From Gordonia insulae (GTDB lineage Bacteria > Actinomycetota > Actinomycetes > Mycobacteriales > Mycobacteriaceae): a stretch of 64,000 nt of DNA. The translations under genes and the position numbers were made by a program. The notes under the pieces were generated by a model that was not told the DNA's origin, searched no databases, and was given only the letters and a program-made list of their open reading frames with translations. Below, piece by piece: positions 13,558 to 40,750 of this stretch (position 1 is the stretch's first letter; the number at the start of each line of letters is the position of its first letter). The DNA lies in contig NZ_CP033972.1 in assembly GCF_003855095.1 (NCBI RefSeq), positions 5,828,001-5,892,000 of the forward strand, written 5' to 3'.

Positions 13558-15438
13558 ATGGGGGTTGTGCTGGTGAAGTCGAGGCGCGCTCTGTTCGCGG
13601 TGCTCGTCGCCGGGTTGATCGTCGCGATCGGTGCGTGCTCGGCGAATCCACCACCACCGGTTCGCGAGACGGCACCGCCGGCGACGCCGGCCGAGTACCC
13701 GACGGAGAAGACGATCTACATCGCCACCGACTCGGTGGGTGGTGGGTTCAACCCACACATCGGGGCGGACCAGGGGACCGTCACGACGGCGGTCGCGGCG
13801 ATGACGCTGCCCAGCGCGTTCCGTCCGGTGGACACGCCCGGCGGCGTCGTCTGGCAGCGGCAGGAGGCGTTGATCACCTCGGCCGAGGTGACGTCGACGG
13901 AACCGTTCACGGTCACCTATCAGATCCACAACGACGCCCAGTGGTCCGACGGTCTCCCGGTCACCGGCGACGACTTCTCCTACCTCTGGCAGCAGATGTC
14001 CCGTCAGCCGAACGTCGTGGCCCCGGCCGGATATCGGCTGATCGACTCCGTGCAGTCGCGGGCCGGCGGCAAGGAGGTCCAGGTGACCTTCGCGCGGCCG
14101 TACCCGGCGTGGCGCGAACTGTTCACCGATCTGCTGCCCAGCCACGTCCTGCGGGGTGCCCCCGCCGGCTTCCAGACCGGCATGGACAGCGGGAAACCGG
14201 TGTCGGCCGGGCCCTATTCGGTCGTCTCCATCGATCAGACCCGCGACGAGGTGCGGCTGGTGCGCAACGACCGCTACTGGATGAAGCCACCGGACCTCGA
14301 CCAGGTAGTCCTGCGCCGGGCCGGTACCGCGTCGCAGATGGTCGAATCGGTGCGTTCGGGGGATTCGTCGGTCGTCACCATCGGTGCCGGACCCGCGACG
14401 ACCGCTGAACTCACCGCTGTGCCGGGTGTGCAGACACGACGCAACCCGACGTCGCGGGCGCTGTCCGTCAGCGTGAACGCACGCACGTCGACGATGCGAT
14501 CGCTCGACGTCCGGCGGGCCGTCCTCGGCATGATCGACCCGAACCTGGTGACCCTGGCCGGTGCGGGTGACGACATCGTCACGCCCTACGCGAACACGGT
14601 GTTCGCACCCACGGACCGCGGGTACTTCCCGGTCGACCGGCCGCGCCCGTCGCCCGACCAGGTGACGGCGTTGCTCACCGACGCCGGTTATAAGCGCGCC
14701 GCGCCGGACCCCGGGACGCCGGCGTCGCCGAGCGGCGCGCAGAGCACCGCGCCCTCCGACTCGTCGACGGGAGCGTCGGGGTCCGACTCGAGCACGGCCG
14801 GCGATGGCGGCGTCGCGACGGCACCGCTGCCGGCCGGCGTCACGCCGTACCGCAAGGACGGCGAGACCCTCACCGTTCGGGTCGGCGCGATCAGTGGCGA
14901 TCCGCGCTCGACCTCGGCTGCCGCCAACATCGTCGACCAGCTGCGCGGCCAGGGCGTCCAGGCCGCCGTGGTGGCGCTGCCCAACAGTGAGCTGTACGGC
15001 GTCGCCCTGACCAATGCGCGGGTGGACCTGGTGGTCGGCTGGACCGGGCTGGGCGTGCCGCCCGCGGCCGCACTCGCCTCCCAGGTCGACTGTGACCAAC
15101 CCAAACCGGGCACCGCACCGTCACTGTCGACGCCACCCACACCGACCAGTGTGGCGCCCGGCCAGACCGGTGCGACCGCCGCCGACAGCTACGCCAGCAA
15201 CATCTCCGGCGTCTGCGACCCGGCACTGATCGGCCTCGCCCGCGGCGCGCTGTCGGCCGTCGATCCCGTCCCGCAGCTGACCGAGGCCGAGCCGCTGCTG
15301 GCGGCGCAGTCGACGTACCTGCCCATCTACCAGGACAGCATGCTGGCCGGTCGGACCGGGACGGTGCGCAATGTGCCGCTCACCGGGCCGATCCAGGTGT
15401 CGATCTTCGGTGATGCGGTGTCCTGGGAGCTTCCGTGA
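13558..15438 (+). CDS. lpqW: lipoprotein LpqW, family 5 solute-binding-like
   Basis: 626 residues. Lipobox AIGAC places the lipidated Cys at residue 27. The body is a family 5 (DppA/OppA-like) solute-binding fold: YIATDSVGGGFNPH near the mature start, DAQWSDGLPVTGDDF, and SAGPYSVVSIDQTRDEVRLVRNDRYW. Position between typA and mshB and the overall form match mycobacterial LpqW, which steers phosphatidylinositol mannoside versus lipoarabinomannan synthesis. A Ser/Thr/Gly/Pro-rich linker (about residues 380-425) and a second Pro/Thr-rich stretch near 520-545 interrupt the domain. The start could also be GTG 13567 or 13573. It overlaps mshB by 4 nt. Confidence 0.8.
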   Translation: MGVVLVKSRRALFAVLVAGLIVAIGACSANPPPPVRETAPPATPAEYPTEKTIYIATDSVGGGFNPHIGADQGTVTTAVAAMTLPSAFRPVDTPGGVVWQRQEALITSAEVTSTEPFTVTYQIHNDAQWSDGLPVTGDDFSYLWQQMSRQPNVVAPAGYRLIDSVQSRAGGKEVQVTFARPYPAWRELFTDLLPSHVLRGAPAGFQTGMDSGKPVSAGPYSVVSIDQTRDEVRLVRNDRYWMKPPDLDQVVLRRAGTASQMVESVRSGDSSVVTIGAGPATTAELTAVPGVQTRRNPTSRALSVSVNARTSTMRSLDVRRAVLGMIDPNLVTLAGAGDDIVTPYANTVFAPTDRGYFPVDRPRPSPDQVTALLTDAGYKRAAPDPGTPASPSGAQSTAPSDSSTGASGSDSSTAGDGGVATAPLPAGVTPYRKDGETLTVRVGAISGDPRSTSAAANIVDQLRGQGVQAAVVALPNSELYGVALTNARVDLVVGWTGLGVPPAAALASQVDCDQPKPGTAPSLSTPPTPTSVAPGQTGATAADSYASNISGVCDPALIGLARGALSAVDPVPQLTEAEPLLAAQSTYLPIYQDSMLAGRTGTVRNVPLTGPIQVSIFGDAVSWELP

Positions 15439-16367
15439 CCCAGGCGAGCGGAGCGACGGGGGATGCGACCGCCGGTGGACGGCGGTTGTTGCTGCTGCAC
15501 GCCCATCCCGACGACGAGTCGATCATGACCGGCGGCACCATCGCCCGGTATCTCGCCGAGGGCGCGGAGGTCCGGGTGCTCACCTTCACGCTCGGCGAGG
15601 AGGGTGAGGTCATCGGGGACGAATGGTCGCAGTTGGCCGCCGACGGTGGCGCCGATCAGCTCGGCGGATACCGCATCCTCGAACTGACCCGCGCGCTCGC
15701 CGAGCTGAGTCCGGCCGGCGGGGACGTGCTGCGTCCCCGTTTCCTCGGCGGTGCGGGGCGCTGGCGTGACTCGGGCATGGCGGGCACACCGTCGGCGCAG
15801 CACCCGCGCGCACTCGTGCAGGCGTCGCCCGAGGACCTGGTGGACACGCTCGTCGCCGAGATCGTGGATTTCGCGCCGCAGGTCATCGTCACCTACGACG
15901 ACGCCGGGACCTACGGTCACCCCGACCACATGCTCGTCCACGAGACGACGGTCGCCGCGGTGCCGCGAGCCCTGCCGCAACTGCCCGCAAGCGGTCTCAA
16001 GGTGTACGAGTCGGTCACCGAGCGCGCCGCTCTCGATGCCGGACTCGCGTCTGCCGCCGGCCGGGTGCCCGACGGTTGGCGCATGCCGCAGCCGGGTGAG
16101 TTGCCCGGTTATCCGGAGTCGGCCATCACCACCGAGATCGATGTGACCGCGTACGTGCCGCAGAAGTCCGCGGCCCTGGCCGCGCACGCCACCCAGGTGA
16201 CGGTCGCCGCCTCCGGCACCGAATACGCCCTGTCCAACAACATCCTGCAGCCGGTGTTCGATCACGAACACTTCATCCTGACCGGCCGGTGGGGTGGCCG
16301 GGCCACCGAGATGTCCGACGGCACCGACGGTGTGCGGGAGACCGACCTGTTCTCCGGGGTCGGCTGA
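15435..16367 (+). CDS. mshB: mycothiol biosynthesis deacetylase MshB
   Basis: 310 residues. Removes acetate from N-acetylglucosaminyl-inositol, the second committed step of mycothiol synthesis, in the cytoplasm. Zinc-site motifs of the LmbE/PIG-L family are intact: AHPDDE at 23-28 and GHPDH at 161-165. TFTLGEEGEVIGDEWSQLA and RPRFLGGAGRWRDSGM are typical of MshB rather than Mca. GTG 15435 overlaps the lpqW stop by 4 nt and the next gene overlaps its stop by 1-3 nt, so all three are coupled. Confidence 0.93.
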   Translation: MTQASGATGDATAGGRRLLLLHAHPDDESIMTGGTIARYLAEGAEVRVLTFTLGEEGEVIGDEWSQLAADGGADQLGGYRILELTRALAELSPAGGDVLRPRFLGGAGRWRDSGMAGTPSAQHPRALVQASPEDLVDTLVAEIVDFAPQVIVTYDDAGTYGHPDHMLVHETTVAAVPRALPQLPASGLKVYESVTERAALDAGLASAAGRVPDGWRMPQPGELPGYPESAITTEIDVTAYVPQKSAALAAHATQVTVAASGTEYALSNNILQPVFDHEHFILTGRWGGRATEMSDGTDGVRETDLFSGVG

Positions 16368-16794: not shown

Positions 16795-17919
16795 ATGGTC
16801 CTGCGGGAGTGGGCTCGGGACGCGCACGCCGCGGTGGACGAAGCCCGGGAAGCATTGCGTCACGTCGCCGACGATCCGGCGTCGCTCACCGACGACGAAT
16901 GGGTAGCGCTGCTGGGTGCCACCGGTTCCGAACTCGACGCATTGTGCGCTCTGGCGGATTCGGCGCGGCGCCGCGTCACCGACGGTGAGTCGCTGACGTT
17001 TGTGGTCAATCGCAACCTCGACACCGCCGTCATCGCCGCCGATCGCGACGACCTGCCTCCGCTGGAATCACTTGTCGACGAGGCCCGGCACCTGGGCGCC
17101 ACCGAGATCTGCATGCAGGGTCCGATCCCCGTTGACGCACCCGGCGACCAGTACCTGCGGCTGGTCGAACGGATCCACGCGGCCGCCCCCGATCTCCACC
17201 TCCACGCCTTTCGGCCACCCGAGGTGCGCGACGCCGCGACGAGGATGGGCATCCCGATCGTCGACTTCCTCCGGCAGGCACACGACGCGGGCCTCGGTTC
17301 CGTGCCCGGCACCGCCGCGCAGGTCCTCGACGACGAGGTGCGCGCCTATCTCGGCAACGGCGTCGCGCCGACGGTGCGCGAGTGGGTGGAGACGATCGAA
17401 ACCGCCCACTCGGTGGGACTGTTCTCCACCGCGACGCTGCTCTACGGGCATGTGGAGACCCCACACCACCAGGTGGCGCACCTGCGTCTGCTCAACGGGA
17501 TCCAGAGTCGGACCGGCGGTTTCAGCGAACTGATCCTCATGCCGATGGTGCCCGCGATGGCTGCGCCGCACCTCCACGGCGTCGCCACATCGACCGTGTC
17601 TCGGCGCGAGACCCGTGCGGTGCACGCGGTCGCACGGCTGATCACCCTGGGACGATTCGATCACCTCCAGGTCGCCTGGACCAAGCACGACCGCGACACC
17701 ACCGAACAAATCCTCGTCGGCGGCGCCGACGACATCGGCGGCCTGCTCCTCGACGGCGAGCTCATGCCGTCGGCGGGTCAGGAGGCCGGGCGTGTCCTCG
17801 ATGTCGACGACCTCGTCGACATCGCCGCCCGGGTCGGCCGCGCACCCCGGCAGCGCACCACCGCCTACACCGACCCACCCGCCGATCGCGTGCTCCCGAT
17901 CCCGCAGGTACGTCCGTGA
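16795..17919 (+). CDS. CofH-like protein without the radical-SAM cysteine cluster
   Basis: 374 residues aligning along its length with the CofH half of FbiC: LTFVVNRN (68-74), GATEICMQGPIP (101-112), HLHAFRPPEVRDAATRMG, PGTAAQVLDDEVR, TATLLYGHVETPHHQVAHL, TGGFSEL, and the terminal GRAPRQRTTAY. CofH normally couples a tyrosine-derived radical to 5-amino-6-ribitylaminouracil in F420 (FO) synthesis. The segment that should hold CxxxCxxC just after VVNRN (here residues about 75-88, nt 17017-17058) has no Cys and is roughly 16 residues shorter than in FbiC, so it cannot bind the [4Fe-4S] cluster in the usual way. Other CofH motifs have drifted (LILMPMVPAM, GGADDIGGLLLDGEL). The reading frame is clean. 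It overlaps the monooxygenase gene by 4 nt. Role unknown. Confidence 0.85.
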   Translation: MVLREWARDAHAAVDEAREALRHVADDPASLTDDEWVALLGATGSELDALCALADSARRRVTDGESLTFVVNRNLDTAVIAADRDDLPPLESLVDEARHLGATEICMQGPIPVDAPGDQYLRLVERIHAAAPDLHLHAFRPPEVRDAATRMGIPIVDFLRQAHDAGLGSVPGTAAQVLDDEVRAYLGNGVAPTVREWVETIETAHSVGLFSTATLLYGHVETPHHQVAHLRLLNGIQSRTGGFSELILMPMVPAMAAPHLHGVATSTVSRRETRAVHAVARLITLGRFDHLQVAWTKHDRDTTEQILVGGADDIGGLLLDGELMPSAGQEAGRVLDVDDLVDIAARVGRAPRQRTTAYTDPPADRVLPIPQVRP

Positions 17920-19421
17920 CCGCCGGCCACTCCGACACCCCGGTCGTGGTCGACGTCGCGATCGTCGGCGCCGGATTCGCCGGTATCGGCATGGCCACCC
18001 AGTTGGCCCGGCGCGCCCGCGAATCCTTCGTGGTCCTCGAGCGCGCCGATGGTGTCGGCGGGACGTGGCGGGACAACACCTATCCGGGGATCGCCTGCGA
18101 CATCCCCGCGCACCTCTACTCGTTCTCGTTCCGGCCGCCGTCGGATTGGGCCACTCTGTATCCGCAGGGTGCCGATATCCGCCGCTATCTGGAGCAGACC
18201 GTCGCCGACGAAGGTCTGGCGCCGCACATCCGGCTCGGCTGCGGACTCGACCAGGCGCACTGGGATGCCGACAGCGACCGGTGGGAGCTGACCACGGGCG
18301 CGGGGCCAATCCTCGCCCGCGTGCTCGTGATGGCCGTCGGCCGGCTCTCCGAGCCGCACGTCCCGGATATCGAGGGACTCGAATCCTTCACCGGCACAGT
18401 CGTTCACACGGCGCAGTGGCGTGACGATCTGTTGTCCGGCGGTGAGCGGATCGGTGTGGTGGGCACGGGCGCGTCCGCGGTCCAGGTGATCCCGCACCTC
18501 GCCGAGGACGCAGAGGAACTCGTCGTCTTCTCCCGCACGCCGCCCTATGTGGTGCCGCGCGAGGATCGTCGGTTCTCCGACGACGAGCGAGCCGAACTGC
18601 GTGTCCCGGAGAATGCGCAGGCGGTGCGCGAACGCATGCTCCTCGACGCCGACAAGGCCTTCGGGCAGCGACTCGGCCTGCATCCGGACATCGACGACAT
18701 CCGTGCGAGGGCGCTCGGGCACCTGCACCGCCAGGTCGCGAGCCCGTCGTTGCGTGCGGCGCTGACACCGGACTACGAGATCGGCTGCAAACGAATCCTG
18801 CTCAGTGACGACTTCTTTCCCACGCTCGAGCGTTCCGACGTCGTGTTCGAGTCGAGCGCGCTCGAGTCGGTCGTCGAATGCAAGGCGCGCGCGGTGAGCG
18901 GCAACACCTACGACCTCGACGTCCTGGTGATGGCGACCGGGTTCGAGGCCACGCGGCCTCCCGCCGCGTCCCGTATCCGTGGTCGCCACGGCCGTGTGCT
19001 GGGCGACCACTGGGCCGACGGCATGGTCTCCTTTGCCTCGACGGCGGTGGCCGGGTTCCCGAACATGTTCGTCCTCGACGGCCCCAACGCGGCCCTCGGA
19101 CACAACTCGGCGATCTACATGATCGAGACCCAGCTCGATTACGTCGTCGGCGCGCTGAACTTCTTGGCGGACAGCGGAAGTCGCTCCGTGGAGGTGAGTG
19201 CGGCGGCCGAGGCCGCCTACACCGCCGAGATCGACCGGCTGGCCGCTTCGACGGTGTGGCTCACCGGATGCGACAGTTGGTACGTGGACCCCGGGAGCGG
19301 GCGACTGACGCTGCTGTGGCCCGGCACCGCGGTGTCGTTCCGCGAACGCAACGGGACCTTCGACCCGCGGCCCTACCTGATCGAACCCCGACTCGTCGAC
19401 GAGGGAGGTCGGACACCATGA
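17916..19421 (+). CDS. FAD-dependent Baeyer-Villiger-type monooxygenase
   Basis: 501 residues. Two Rossmann motifs, GAGFAGIG (18-25, FAD) and GTGASA (183-188, NADPH), flank the fingerprint FxGxxxHxxxW ([11 protein letters not shown], 158-168). VMATGF lies near residue 340 and the C-terminal half is as expected for flavin-containing/BV monooxygenases, which insert one oxygen atom into ketones or oxidise N/S atoms. The substrate is unknown. GTG 17916 overlaps the cofH-like stop and the cofG ATG overlaps this gene's stop (both 4 nt), so it is translated between two FO-synthase-type proteins. Confidence 0.88.
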
Positions 19422-20665
19422 CCGGCACAGTATCCGTGGCGGCCGCGCTGGCGGCGGCACGATCCGGAGCACCGATCGATCGCGCACAGGCAACATCCCT
19501 GCTGGCCTGCTCGGGCGACGAACTGATCGAACTGCAGGAGATCGCCGCGACGCTGCGCGACGACGGTCTCGCCGCGGTGGGACGTGATCGACAGATCACC
19601 TACTCCCGCAAGGTCTTCATCCCACTGACCCGGCTGTGCCGTGATCGGTGTCATTACTGCACGTTCGTCACGGTGCCGGGCAAGCTGGCCCGGGAGGGCC
19701 ACGGGATGTACCTCGACCTCGACGAGGTCGTCGACATCGCGCGCAAGGGCGCCGAACTCGGCTGCAAGGAGGCGTTGTTCACCCTCGGCGACCGTCCCGA
19801 GGCCCGGTGGTCCCAGGCCGGTGAGTGGCTCGCGGCCCGCGGGTACACGTCCACCCTCGACTACGTGCGCGCCGCGGCGGTCGCCGTCCTCGAGGACACC
19901 GGACTGCTGCCGCACCTCAATCCCGGGGTGATGAGCGCCGAGGAGATGCGACGCCTGCGCCCGGTCGCCCCGTCGATGGGCATGATGTTGGAGACCACCT
20001 CGCGGCGACTGTTCACCGACAAGGGGCAGCCGCATTACGGCAGTCCCGACAAGGATCCGCTGGTGCGCCTGCAAGTGCTGCACGACGCGGGGGCCGAACG
20101 CATCCCGTTCACCACCGGCATCCTGGTGGGGATCGGCGAAACCCTCACGGAGAGAGCCGAATCCATCCTGGCGATGGCGGAGGTGCAGCGTGCGCACGGG
20201 CACATCCAGGAAGTCATCGTGCAGAACTTCCGGGCCAAGCCGGACACCGCTATGCGGGGGACGCCCGACGCGGAGATGACCGAGTTCCTGGCCGCCGTCG
20301 CGGTGGCGCGGATCGTGCTCGGACCGCACATGCGGGTGCAGGCGCCGCCGAACCTGGTGTCGCGCGAGGAATGTGCGGCGCTGGTCGCGTCCGGTATCGA
20401 CGATTGGGGCGGGGTGTCACCGCTGACCCCCGACCACGTCAACCCCGAACGGCCGTGGCCGAATCTCGACGTCCTCGCCGAGATCACCGCGTCGACCGGG
20501 CACACCCTCACCGAACGCATCACGGCGCAGCCGCCCTATGTGCTGGGCGGCGACGAGTGGATCGATCCGTCCCTGGCGCATCATGTCGCCGCGCTGGCCG
20601 ATCCGGCGACGGGCCTGGCTGCCGCGGTGAAACCGCAGGGCCGGCCGTGGTCGGCAGTCGCCTGA
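19418..20665 (+). CDS. cofG: 7,8-didemethyl-8-hydroxy-5-deazariboflavin synthase subunit CofG
   Basis: 415 residues, a stand-alone CofG very close to the N-terminal half of mycobacterial FbiC. Radical-SAM Cys 74, 78 and 81 lie in [14 protein letters not shown]. Other family blocks are intact: [87 protein letters not shown] and [21 protein letters not shown]. It should catalyse the second radical step that closes the deazaflavin ring. The protein stops where FbiC would continue into its CofH half. ATG 19418 overlaps the monooxygenase stop. Confidence 0.9.
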
Positions 20666-20727: not shown

Positions 20728-21108
20728 TCAGCGCGCGGTGTGGGCCGCCTGCAACGCCTCGTAGCCGCCGATCACATCGGTCGCGCGATGCAGTCCGAGC
20801 TGCTGCAGCGACGCGGCGGCCAGGCTGGACGTGTACCCCTGGGAACACAGGATGATCCACCGGACGTCGTGGTCGACGGCCTCCGGGATGTGCGCGTCGC
20901 TCGCCGGATCGCAGCGCCACTCGAGGACATTGCGTTCGATGACGAGCGCGCCATCGGCCTCACCCTCGACGGCGCGCTGGGCGGCGGGACGGATGTCGAC
21001 GAGCACCGCGCCGGACGCGAGCTCGTCGGCCACGTCGCGTGCGTCGAGCCGCCGGAGCCGATCGCGGGCGTCGAGCAGCAGGTCGTCGATCGTCGGCATC
21101 GAGGTCAC
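20728..21108 (-). CDS. rhodanese-like sulfurtransferase
   Basis: 126-residue single rhodanese domain. The active-site loop is LCSQGYTSS with Cys88 as the likely persulfide carrier, preceded by the CH2A-like VLVDIRPAAQR. Family members move sulfane sulfur from thiosulfate or persulfides to thiols. GTG 21108 overlaps the TGA of the upstream cysteine dioxygenase gene, so the two are translationally coupled and probably act in cysteine-sulfur breakdown. Confidence 0.85.
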   Translation of the reverse strand: MTSMPTIDDLLLDARDRLRRLDARDVADELASGAVLVDIRPAAQRAVEGEADGALVIERNVLEWRCDPASDAHIPEAVDHDVRWIILCSQGYTSSLAAASLQQLGLHRATDVIGGYEALQAAHTAR

Positions 21109-21689
21109 TCCGGTTCGTCGGTCAGTTCGGTGCGGGTCCGGCGCAGGGTGGCGTGATCGGTCACGGCGTAGAACGACATGGCGGTCAGCGGCGGCGAATA
21201 CGCGTGCACGCTGAGTGTAGGTGTGATGGGGCCGGGCGAGGCCTGGGCGCCCGACTCGGTCTGGATGGCGAGCGGGTCGTGGCGCTGCACGTCGTGCACC
21301 CAGCCGAGTGGGAAGGCGGCCTGATCGCCGGCGTCCAGGACGCGCAGGGCCAGATCCTGACCAGTCCAGCGATACTCCCGCAGCGACCCCGACAACACCG
21401 TGAGCGCACCGAGCGACCCCGCGTGATCGTGCAGTTCGGTCGATCGGTCCGGGGTCCAGCTGATGAGCCAGACGTCGAGATCGTCATTCGAGACCAGGCG
21501 CGTCGCCCAGCGCTCGACGGGGTCCCAGTGTCTCGGCAACAGATGGTCGTAGACACCGTCGAGGACGTCGGCGACGCCCTGGTCGGTGATACGCAGCAGA
21601 TCGGCCGGCCGAAGCCGGGTCGGCAGATTCGCCGGACGGACGTGAGCGGGTTCGAATCGCGGGTCGGGTCGACGCAACGTCGTGGTCAT
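21105..21689 (-). CDS. cysteine dioxygenase type I
   Basis: 194-residue cupin. The iron-binding three-His set is visible as H87 and H89 in TELHDHAGS and H132 in WVHDVQ, and the Ser-His-Tyr group in SVHAYSPP (160-166) matches bacterial cysteine dioxygenases. It oxidises cysteine to cysteine sulfinate. SD-like GGAG lies 7 nt before the ATG. It is first in an operon with the rhodanese gene. A short Cys-containing reading frame lies directly upstream. Confidence 0.85.
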   Translation of the reverse strand: MTTTLRRPDPRFEPAHVRPANLPTRLRPADLLRITDQGVADVLDGVYDHLLPRHWDPVERWATRLVSNDDLDVWLISWTPDRSTELHDHAGSLGALTVLSGSLREYRWTGQDLALRVLDAGDQAAFPLGWVHDVQRHDPLAIQTESGAQASPGPITPTLSVHAYSPPLTAMSFYAVTDHATLRRTRTELTDEPE

Positions 21690-22081: not shown

Positions 22082-22408
22082 GTGACGTACATCATCGCGG
22101 AGCCTTGTGTCGACGTTCTGGACAAGGCCTGCGTCGAGGAATGCCCGGTGGATTGCATCTACGAGGGTGGCCGGATGCTCTACATCCAGCCCGACGAGTG
22201 CGTCGACTGCGGTGCCTGCGAACCGGTGTGTCCGGTGGAGGCGATCTTCTACGAGGATGATGTGCCCGACGAGTGGGAACCCTACGTGAGCGCCAACGCC
22301 GACTTCTTCGACGACCTGGGCTCGCCCGGTGGCGCGAGCAAGGTCGGCAAGACCGACACCGACGCCGCGTTCGTCAAGGGTCTGCCGCCGATGAACGAAG
22401 AGGAATGA
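22082..22408 (+). CDS. fdxC: seven-iron ferredoxin
   Basis: 108 residues, start GTG 22082 directly after AAGGAGAG. The N-terminal cluster region (TYIIAEPCVDVLDKACVEECP) supplies the [3Fe-4S] ligands and CVDCGACEPVCP supplies the [4Fe-4S] ligands. The rest is the long acidic tail typical of actinobacterial FdxA/FdxC. Cytoplasmic electron carrier. It sits 9 nt before dapC, the same order as Rv1177-Rv1178. Confidence 0.92.
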   Translation: MTYIIAEPCVDVLDKACVEECPVDCIYEGGRMLYIQPDECVDCGACEPVCPVEAIFYEDDVPDEWEPYVSANADFFDDLGSPGGASKVGKTDTDAAFVKGLPPMNEEE

Positions 22409-37721: not shown

Positions 37722-38306
37722 TCAGCCGAGCCCGGCCGTCCGGCATGCGGTGAGACCGCGCCTGATCAGGATCGGTGTGTCGACGGCGTCGGTGTGTGCC
37801 GGCAGGTCGTCGATCGGCCACCACGCGAGATCCACCGACTCGTCGCTGCGCACTATCCGCGGGGGAGTTCCGTCGGCGGTCGGCGACGCCACCGCGGCGA
37901 ACCGGACGTCGAGATGGCGGGTGGGTACGCCGAGCGAGCACGTGATCGGATGCGTGTGCAGATGGACCGGCCCGGTCGCGATGTGCAGGTCGGGGATGCC
38001 GGACTCCTCGCGCGCCTCCCGGGTGGCCGCGTCGGCGAGCGTGTCGTCGCTCTCCTCGCAGTGACCGCCGAGCTGAATCCACTTGCCCACACGTGGATGC
38101 AGGGTCAGCAGCACGTGGCTCAGGGTCGCGTCGAAGACGATCGCCGATGCGGTGATGTGGCCCGGCTCGCTGGCCCTCAGGCAGGCAGCCGCTGTGGCGT
38201 CGAGGAATGCGAGATAGGTGTGGCGCAACGAGTCCTGCTCCGGGTCCGGGGCCGTCCACGACCGAAGGGTCTCGATGGACGATGCCCGCAGCGATGCGGC
38301 GCTCAT
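37722..38306 (-). CDS. Nudix hydrolase coupled to fbiB
   Basis: 194 residues. The Nudix box reads [25 protein letters not shown], with REAREESGI fully canonical and Asp in place of the first conserved Glu. [16 protein letters not shown] precedes it. ATG 38306 overlaps the fbiB stop by 4 nt, so it is the third gene of the fbiA-fbiB-nudix operon. A role in housecleaning or in F420/nucleotide metabolism is inferred from context only. Confidence 0.8.
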
Positions 38307-39661
38307 CGCTCGAGCACCAGGCCATCGGTCGACGCCGGCTCCCGCAGTCCCGCGTCGTCGAGCGGACGTCCGATCGCGATCGCGCCCAACGGTTCCCACC
38401 GCTCGTCGAGCTCGAGGACGTCGCGCACGACCTGCGGTGCGAAGATCGTCGAACCTATCCAACAGCTGCCCACCCCGCGGACCGACAGCGCGACGAGCAG
38501 TGCCGACACCGCGCCGCCGGCCGCGACCGTGAACATGGTGTGCTCGGCGGCGCGCCTGCGGGTGTCGGGATAGTCGTGTGCGCCGTCGGGGACCAGGAAC
38601 GGGATGACCAATTCGGGTGCGTCATAGAGGATCTGACCGCGTCGCAGACGCTTCTCGATCGATTCCGGCGACTTCTGGTCCGCGCCGAGATCGGAGCGCC
38701 AGGCATCCGCCATAGCATCGAGCAGACGTGCCCGGCGATCCGCCGATCGGACCCAGACGAACCGGACCGGGTGCGTGTGATGCGGCGCCGGCGCGGTGAG
38801 GGCATCGGCGAACGCCGCCGACATGATCTCGGCGTCGATCGGCCCCGGCGCGAAGGCACGAATCGATCTCCGCGTCAGCAGGGCCTGCCGGTGGCCCAGC
38901 TCGATGGCCTCCGCCGTGCCCAGTCGGAACAGGTCCTCGTCGGCCGGACGGACGAGGTCGGCGGCCCGGGACCCGTCGTCGATCGGGCCGAGCCCACGAA
39001 TCACCGCGATCGGGACCCCGCCGAGTTTGCCCTTCACCAGGTCGCCGGCCGCGGCGATCTCGTCGGCGACGGCGACATCGGTCACCACGAGGGGATTGCC
39101 GTAGGTATCGACGGAACCGTCGTAGGGATGGGACACCCGGATGCCGGCGGCACCGATCGCGACGTCGGTCTGGCCGTTGCGCCAGGCCCGTCCCATGGTG
39201 TCCGTCACGACCACCGCGACGTCGACGCCGGCGACCTCCTTGATGCGCCCGCGCAGCCGCGCTGCGCTCGCGTCGGGGTCCAGCGGGAGGAGCGCGAGTT
39301 GATCGGTGGCGATGTTCGACCCGTCCACCCCGGCCGCGGCCTGCACGATGCCGAGCCGGTTCTCGGTGATCAGGGTGCGGTTCTTGCGTGCCAGTACGCG
39401 CACCGACTCCTCGTCGATCAGCTTGCGGCGAAGTGCATCCCGCTCGTCGGGATCGGTGGGCGCGGCCACCATCCGTCCCTCGACCTTGGAGAAGATCTTG
39501 CTGGTCACGACCACGACGTCGCCATCGGCGAGCCAGGGTGCGGCGGCGGCGAGTTCCGTGGCGATGTCGCTGTCGGTGCCGAACTCGCCGAGACCGATGA
39601 CCGGCCGGATCTCCAGACTCCCGGCCGCGCCGTGGTCGCCGGGCGACCCCGGGGCGGTCAC
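38303..39661 (-). CDS. fbiB: coenzyme F420:L-glutamate ligase with C-terminal nitroreductase domain
   Basis: 452 residues, full two-domain FbiB. The N-terminal CofE-like half (about 15-255) carries [36 protein letters not shown] and [10 protein letters not shown]; the C-terminal half (about 260-452) is an FMN-binding nitroreductase fold with [13 protein letters not shown] and [12 protein letters not shown]. It adds the glutamate tail to F420-0 and reduces dehydro-F420-0. GTG 39661 overlaps the fbiA stop (GTGA). Confidence 0.92.
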
Positions 39662-40737
39662 GCGGCCGGCCCGTTCGATGCGCCGGCATCGTGAGCGGGG
39701 GTGGTCACACCGACCAGCGCGCAGGCATCGCGGACCATGGTGGCGGTCGTCGGGGGATCGGTCATCAGCAGCGGTGCCGCCCCGATCGCGATGCCGTCGA
39801 CGGTGGCGCGATCGCCCTCTGCGATCAGCCACCCGTCGAGGATGCCGTTGCCACTGCGCGCGCCGTAGTGCGCCGCGATGGCCTCCGCGGTGGTCTCCAC
39901 ACCGATCACCGACAGACACTCGTCGGCCATGCCACGCAACGGCCGGTCGTCGATGACGGGGGAGATCCCGACGACGGGTGCCGACGTCGTCCGCAGGGCG
40001 CTGCGCACGCCGGGCACGCTGACGATGGCCCCGATGCTGACCACGGGATTGCTGGGTGCGATGAGCACGACGTCGGCACCGGTGATGGCGTCGACCACTC
40101 CCGGTGCGGCCTGGGTGTCATCAGAACCCACCTGGGCGAAACCGTAGGTGGGTATCCGCGCGCGGTGTCGAACCCACCACTCCTGGAAGTGGATGGCGAC
40201 CCGATCACCGTCGTCGCCGTCCGGCTTCGCGACCACCACATGGGTCTCATGGCGGTCGTCGGTCGCCGGGATCAGGCGCACACCCGGCTGCCAGCGCCGG
40301 CACAGCGCTGCGGTCACATCGGACAGGCGGTAGCCGGCGTCGAGCATCTGGGTGCGGATGAGATGCGTCGCCAGGTCGCGGTCGCCGAGACCGAACCAGT
40401 CGGGGTCGGCGCCATAGGCCGCGAGCTCCTCCTTGGCATGCCACGTCTCGCCGACGCGACCCCAACCACGCTCCCGGTCGATCCCGCCGCCCAGCGTGTA
40501 CATGCAGGTGTCGAGATCGGGACAGATCCGCACGCCGTGCATCCATGCATCGTCGCCGACATTGACGATCGCGGTGACCTCGTGTTGTCGGTCATCCGGA
40601 TGATTCACCGTGGCGGCAACCGTCCCGTCCGTGGTGGGATCCACGGGGTCGGGAAACGACGTGGGCCCGAGCAGTTCCCGGACACCGGACAAGAAGCGGG
40701 CGCCACCGACACCGCCGACGAGAACCGTCACTTTCAC
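39658..40737 (-). CDS. fbiA: F420 biosynthesis transferase FbiA (CofD)
   Basis: 359 residues. [16 protein letters not shown] opens the CofD fold, then [26 protein letters not shown] and [20 protein letters not shown]. It joins the lactyl/enolpyruvyl phosphate moiety to FO, the step before FbiB. GTG 40737 (VKVTVLVGG) is chosen over GTG 40746 because TAGAGT lies 7 nt upstream of it. Its substrate FO would need CofG plus a working CofH; the CofH homologue in this window lacks its cluster. Confidence 0.93.
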
Positions 40738-40744
40738 CTCGTTC

Positions 40745-40750
40745 ACTCTA
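40745..40750 (-). promoter_or_regulatory. -10 hexamer for fbiA
   Basis: TAGAGT on the minus strand, 7 nt before GTG 40737; leaderless spacing for the fbiA-fbiB-nudix operon. Confidence 0.6.

Follow-up and report, generated by a model that had tools for sequence, protein, structure and literature searches.

A CofH homologue lacking its radical-SAM cluster segment and its flavoprotein neighbor as a probable replacement for CofH in FO synthesis

The CofH* locus of Gordonia insulae

The window analyzed here is a stretch of 64,000 nucleotides of the Gordonia insulae genome (contig NZ_CP033972.1, positions 5,828,001 to 5,892,000) that harbors a CofH homologue without the CxxxCxxC motif, named CofH* in this text, together with other genes of the F420 pathway (Table 1). 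CofH* is encoded by an open frame of 374 amino acids, and its residues 11-365 match the CofH half of FbiC (NF006687, 351 bits), which bears out the original prediction, made from the sequence, of homology along its length. Its scores against TIGR03551 (288.4 bits) and the radical-SAM family PF04055 (22.9 bits) lie below the curated cut-off of 374.1 and the gathering score of 29.5, respectively. From after the RN of VVNRN up to ATEICMQG, CofH* has 27 residues vs 44 in canonical Gordonia CofH; by alignment its cluster loop is about 17 residues shorter, close to the 16 or so first estimated, and it holds no CxxxCxxC, so the segment has been lost as cleanly as was claimed. Compared with Gordonia hankookensis, dN/dS is 0.127/0.879, or about 0.14, by which CofH* looks like a kept gene, again as predicted from its intact frame. 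The proposed check for a CofH or FbiC with CxxxCxxC elsewhere in the genome found none: a search with the CofH* protein returned CofH* itself as the sole match, and no CofH in the G. insulae genome scores above the TIGR03551 cut-off.

Table 1. Features of the CofH* locus and F420 pathway genes in the window
Feature	Position	Strand	Basis
mshB-like gene (name presumed), left neighbor, kept in canonical Gordonia	15435..16367	+	
CofH*, CofH homologue without radical-SAM cluster segment	16795..17919	+	profile matches, motif count, alignment
Site of lost cluster segment, residues 75-90	17017..17064	+	sequence read and alignment
FMO, type I Baeyer-Villiger-monooxygenase-like flavoprotein	17916..19421	+	profile matches, fingerprints
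CofG, radical-SAM, CxxxCxxC present	19418..20665	+	TIGR03550 461 bits vs cut-off 213.35
Ferredoxin gene region, right neighbor, kept in canonical Gordonia	22100..22408	+	
CofE/FbiB	38303..39919 (ORF start mechanical)	-	PF01996 match 38993-39565
CofD/FbiA	39658..40746	-	TIGR01819 match 39721-40731

The CofH* stop overlaps the GTG start of the FMO gene as GTGA (17916-17919), and the FMO stop overlaps the ATG of CofG as ATGA (19418-19421). Among PDB entries the FMO profile matches steroid monooxygenase (E 2.9e-92), phenylacetone monooxygenase (PAMO; 6e-89) and cyclohexanone monooxygenase (1.6e-87). The window FMO carries both FxGxxxHxxxW and GGxWxxxxYPxxxxD, which we take to be the fingerprints of type I Baeyer-Villiger monooxygenases; across the 80 loci described below they occur in 76/80 and 79/80, respectively, and GCKR in 80/80. 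This GCKR aligns to GAKR of steroid monooxygenase, and its KR presumably holds the conserved active-site arginine of Baeyer-Villiger monooxygenases, as in PAMO. FMO thus resembles these three enzymes by profile and fingerprints, and oxidation of a ketone to an ester is its predicted activity; it differs from them in being linked to F420 genes, whereas the titles of the matched structures name no such pathway. Because three more matches to the FMO profile occur in the G. insulae genome at E<=1e-120, the FMO family must be regarded as broad.

Among 49 genomes, all selected for CofH*, CofD and CofE score above cut-off in 48 each, one 2.9 Mb MAG being without both, and CofC does so in 21 of 23 genomes (18/20 with CofH*, G. 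insulae included, and 3/3 canonical Gordonia). The G. insulae genome also has 11 matches to PF04075 (F420-dependent reductases), and no report of FO or F420 in Gordonia was found in the literature searched. In two Humibacter and the MAG locus L070, CofD, fused CofG-CofH* and FMO lie together, with CofC and CofE nearby on the opposite strand; the MAG contig L055 has CofD, CofG-CofH*, FMO and CofE, CofC alone being missing. Between CofG and the ferredoxin gene of the window (20728-21689, reverse strand) lie two genes that we take to be rhodanese-like and cysteine-dioxygenase-like. The same pair is found in two Gordonia loci (L019 and L024) and in Williamsia (L045, L185-L188), with no match in six canonical Gordonia loci.

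Sequence features of the CofH* clade

A homologue search with CofH* gave 1548 matches, and CxxxCxxC is present in 0/120 of those listed (query counted). For comparison we used a CofH* set of 85 sequences (83 different), composed of the window, 80 loci (the best of 154 that were confirmed) and four further loci, and a canonical CofH set of 41 sequences (40 different). The motif occurs in 0/85 of the former and 41/41 of the latter, a count that is expected for the canonical set because 30 of its 41 sequences were chosen for having the highest TIGR03551 scores in the phylum sample. An assembly collapse or pseudogene at CofH*, including the collapse at 17017-17058 that the original prediction had allowed for, is ruled out by these two zero counts and the low dN/dS. 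In a quick tree with SH-aLRT support only, built from 74 rows (25/41 canonical and 49/85 CofH*), the CofH* rows form one side of a single branch with support 100; on this tree the loss of the cluster marks a clade, not one gene. The earlier interpretation therefore stands as to the loss and the kept gene, having foreseen neither the clade-wide extent of the loss nor the adjacent FMO. By record title, CofH* organisms include Gordonia, Williamsia, Nocardia, Rhodococcus, Pseudonocardia, Actinomycetospora, Saccharopolyspora, Kineococcus and Actinoplanes, and CofH* forms the second half of a fused FbiC in Arthrobacter, Rathayibacter, Humibacter, Naasia, Promicromonospora, Nocardioides and several MAGs. 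These fused proteins have a single CxxxCxxC, which belongs to CofG. Two titles seem doubtful in label or binning: L030, titled Kitasatospora arboriphila, resembles Williamsia muralis, and L086, titled Acidobacteriaceae, has a CofH* identical to that of L177 from the family of G. insulae.

In the joint alignment 98% of CofH* have gaps at the columns of the second and third cysteines, and another residue stands in place of the first. The second G of QGG, whose GG we take to be a SAM-site motif, is P in 76% of CofH* (canonical G120 = P110), so that the GG is absent there. The canonical EETISR stretch is likewise substituted, E330 by G321 in 98% and R334 by P325 in all. Other positions are kept in at least 95% of both CofH* and canonical CofH: R73, N74, E104, C106, H135, H137, E143, D179, D180, R183, H205, H219, H229, E245, Q292, W295, K297, D313, R349, R354 and Y358. 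A search for newly conserved residues, suggested with the original prediction, yields R140, which is conserved in CofH* where canonical CofH mostly has S. A new cluster held by other cysteines was considered and rejected, since C106 alone is invariant in a 24-row CofH* alignment and is also conserved in canonical CofH. These patterns point to a protein that has lost its cofactor site and kept its substrate pocket, the residues being assigned to ligands only putatively.

CofH* thus agrees with CofH and the C-terminal half of FbiC (TIGR03551) in its homology after the cluster loop, its pathway neighbors and its many residues kept at the level of at least 95%, and differs from them in having no CxxxCxxC in 85/85 sequences, a QGG that is mostly QGP, a score below the cut-off and an FMO partner. 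The score separates the two types narrowly, the fused CofH* half of Arthrobacter wenxiniae reaching 369.4 bits vs the cut-off of 374.1, and the motif rather than the score therefore serves as our criterion. One solved structure is matched by CofH*, over residues 98-359 (E 2.7e-29): that of the aminodeoxyfutalosine synthase MqnE (PDB 6xi9), itself a radical-SAM enzyme of menaquinone synthesis, and the match starts past the cluster region.

Association with FMO and distribution relative to canonical CofH

In 80/80 loci, these being the best 80 of 154, CofH* is followed on the same strand by an FMO homologue with 47-85% identity. The FMO match begins no more than 150 nt past the CofH* stop in 70 loci, at 218 nt in one further locus and at 239 nt in another; in the remaining eight the gap exceeds 600 nt, and there an alpha/beta hydrolase sits between the fused CofG-CofH* and FMO (L053, L056, L058, L066, L076, L078, L085 and L087). 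This hydrolase has a Pfam match in L056 and L085, and the other six are 35-43% similar to the L085 protein; the FMO of L076 is split into two pieces that lie in different frames. None of the 41 canonical CofH loci (2.8-12 kb, mostly about 4 kb) contains an FMO match at E<=1e-10. No CofH*-FMO fusion protein is found among the 120 listed of 7465 FMO homologues (476-539 amino acids; the search reached about 877). CofH* and FMO distances correlate across the 80 loci (Spearman 0.68), a value to which we give little weight because it has no species-tree control.

Among 251 genomes of the GTDB family of G. insulae, 227 have a TIGR03551 match at E<=1e-40; of these, 196 exceed the cut-off and the other 31 fall within the range of CofH* (E 1e-72 to 1e-91), and five of these 31 were read directly for the motif (G. 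insulae, G403, G513, G368 and G542). The FMO profile, scored on five to six candidates per genome (six in this sample), matches 31/251 at E<=1e-190, and 30 of these are common to the CofH*-range set. In G368 the FMO directly downstream of CofH* is more distant (46% identity), and G486 has a canonical CofH and, behind a hydrolase, an FMO of 676 bits that is 43% identical, with no CofH*. The hydrolase ahead of this FMO relative (L193) resembles those found between CofH* and FMO. For the resulting counts of 30/1/1/195 the Fisher P is 4e-35, which overstates independence because the genomes are related. The original prediction had looked to sister strains for CxxxCxxC at this locus, and the answer is informative: 6/22 sampled Gordonia do have canonical FbiC in this neighborhood, but without an FMO ortholog, and the other 16 have CofH* and FMO. 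Lower-scoring FMO paralogues exist in Gordonia, G. insulae included.

In the phylum sample of 296 genomes, FMO matches above 620 bits occur in G. insulae only, and 38 other genomes have only sub-cut-off TIGR03551 matches. CxxxCxxC is present in 3/3 of those looked at among the 38 (G077, G115 and G287), as it is in G239 and G330, which score just above the cut-off. G090 has a second FbiC-like frame (L200, G090:C306) of 861 residues with no CxxxCxxC in either half and no FMO match within 12 kb; this genome also has canonical CofH, and the second FbiC is a different, degenerate copy.

Six canonical Gordonia loci (L179-L184) share a neighborhood of typA, a substrate-binding-protein gene, mshB, fused CofG-CofH, fdx and dapC, with a small membrane gene matched in 5/6; fdx follows FbiC after 0.2-0.4 kb in three of the loci and after 2.3-3 kb in the other three. 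The same neighborhood is occupied by CofH*-FMO-CofG in the window, L019 and L024. Between the two types CofG is 73-75% identical, as against 42-45% for CofH* and the canonical half. The fbiC beside fdx is reduced to CofG in two Williamsia, three Nocardia and one Rhodococcus, where CofH*-FMO lies elsewhere. On a CofG tree of 73 rows, thinned from 109, six changes are needed to account for the CofG-only state, and well-supported branches force four of them.

Canonical CofH above cut-off accompanies CofH* in 5/49 CofH* genomes (four Nocardia and one MAG); G007 and G009 have a full-length FbiC whose CofH half is below cut-off but retains the cysteines. Replacement is incomplete in these four Nocardia, the MAG and two W. 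muralis-like genomes, because a canonical CofH or a full-length FbiC persists. The four Nocardia (G012, G015, G027 and G035) have canonical FbiC and CofH*-FMO, and other Nocardia retain just CofG. The two W. muralis-like loci (L185 and L186) have CofH*-FMO plus a full-length FbiC with a diverged CofH half that contains CxxxCxxC. This half in W. muralis lacks NRN, GG, HAF and about 17 residues, keeps its cysteines and is perhaps decaying.

A proposed role in FO synthesis and its alternatives

We consider it highly probable that CofH* and FMO replace the radical-SAM CofH in FO synthesis. At the level of sequence, this is supported by the cluster loss, the single clade, the adjacency of FMO and the near-complete mutual exclusion with canonical CofH, and further by the swap within the same neighborhood, the loss of the CofH half in several lineages and the retention of CofC, CofD, CofE and CofG; genomic context also supports CofH* acting before CofG. 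The original prediction had proposed a new role for the protein, as scaffold, substrate carrier or non-radical enzyme. The last fits best, in what would be the old FO step carried out with a new partner rather than a new role.

In canonical CofH a 5'-deoxyadenosyl radical fragments tyrosine and the p-hydroxybenzyl unit joins the diaminouracil, according to the available text of two sources (PMC8498797; PMC8210684). Because CofG is kept, the CofH*-FMO pair is expected to yield a 4-hydroxybenzyl adduct of 5-amino-6-ribitylaminouracil (5-A-RU) that is identical or closely similar to the canonical one. In the mechanism we propose, FMO, with NADPH, FAD and O2, would insert an oxygen beside the carbonyl of 4-hydroxyphenylpyruvate; the acid would then leave the resulting 4-hydroxybenzyl ester, generating a p-quinone methide, to which 5-A-RU, held in the CofH* barrel, would add via its C5. 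The Calpha-Cbeta bond of the tyrosine skeleton would be cut, the same as in canonical CofH, without a radical, and CofG would then close the ring as usual to give FO, the F420 chromophore. A 4-hydroxybenzyl ester is a source of p-quinone methide, a non-radical electrophile. The chances that O2-dependent cleavage of 4-hydroxyphenylpyruvate yields a p-quinone methide captured by 5-A-RU in CofH* seem to us evenly balanced. The choice of 4-hydroxyphenylpyruvate as the FMO substrate is a guess; it is the ring-hydroxylated analogue of phenylacetone with a carboxylate in place of the methyl. In the available text of the respective papers, PAMO converts phenylacetone to benzyl acetate (PMC3404926) and has been applied to phenylacetones obtained from phenylpropenes, with an esterase as the next step (PMC10840651). 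The in-between alpha/beta hydrolase would suit an ester product and is present in just 8/80 loci. As a whole, replacement and p-quinone methide chemistry taken together, the explanation appears fairly probable. Whether a radical-SAM barrel has turned into a non-radical C-C bond former that catches FMO-made p-quinone methide, an O2-dependent CofH replacement whose module passed from one actinobacterial lineage to another before FbiC shed its CofH half on several occasions, we would judge an open bet either way.

The same replacement might run on other chemistry, with FMO oxidizing the amine of tyrosine, whereupon the phenolate would push out the Calpha-Cbeta bond inside CofH* to give the quinone methide and a glyoxylate oxime, or oxidizing 4-hydroxyphenylacetaldehyde to a formate ester. 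This is rather unlikely for an FMO that carries what we take to be Baeyer-Villiger-type fingerprints and whose nearest PDB relatives are ketone monooxygenases, although the evidence for linkage and replacement fits it equally. Tyrosine, in its favor, is the substrate of canonical CofH in the available text of the review cited above (PMC8498797).

Far less probable is that CofH* and FMO make a modified deazaflavin or serve another pathway, FO coming from uptake or an unrelated enzyme. The four Nocardia and one MAG that also hold canonical CofH would suit this, as would the FMO relative with a hydrolase and without CofH* in G486 and the ability of FO to cross membranes (available text of PMC8498797). 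Against it, FbiC loses precisely its CofH half where the pair occurs, the pair is located in F420 operons, and 44/49 CofH* genomes have no other CofH over cut-off, with CofD and CofE in 48. That the gene is degenerate or an assembly artefact is scarcely credible: the first impression of a missing motif and the degenerate second FbiC of G090, which sits beside an intact one, suggest it, and the motif's absence from all 85 relatives, the supported clade, the dN/dS and the lack of an intact paralogue in G. insulae speak against it.

According to a 2021 review, every producer studied makes FO by a universal mechanism that relies on two SAM-radical domains, and the review's available text does not contain the words Gordonia and Arthrobacter (PMC8498797). 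No paper on a cluster-less CofH appeared among the papers listed in the literature searched, most subscription journals lying outside it. The pathway and the homologous protein are already known; what is new here is that the defining cofactor of one step is gone and a new partner stands in its place. If CofH* and FMO do carry out the first step, the route to FO via two radical-SAM domains would no longer be universal, that step would no longer need an oxygen-sensitive cluster, and there would be a second way to build F420, a cofactor so far described as made in one way. CofH* would then exemplify a radical-SAM fold that gave up its cofactor yet stayed in its original pathway thanks to a new partner, the present labels (FO synthase, radical SAM protein) would mislead for the whole clade, and the pair could offer an oxygen-tolerant part for F420 production in other hosts.

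One further gene arrangement is that of A. wenxiniae, in which CofC, CofG and CofH* share a single open frame of 1048 residues (L053:5940-9083).
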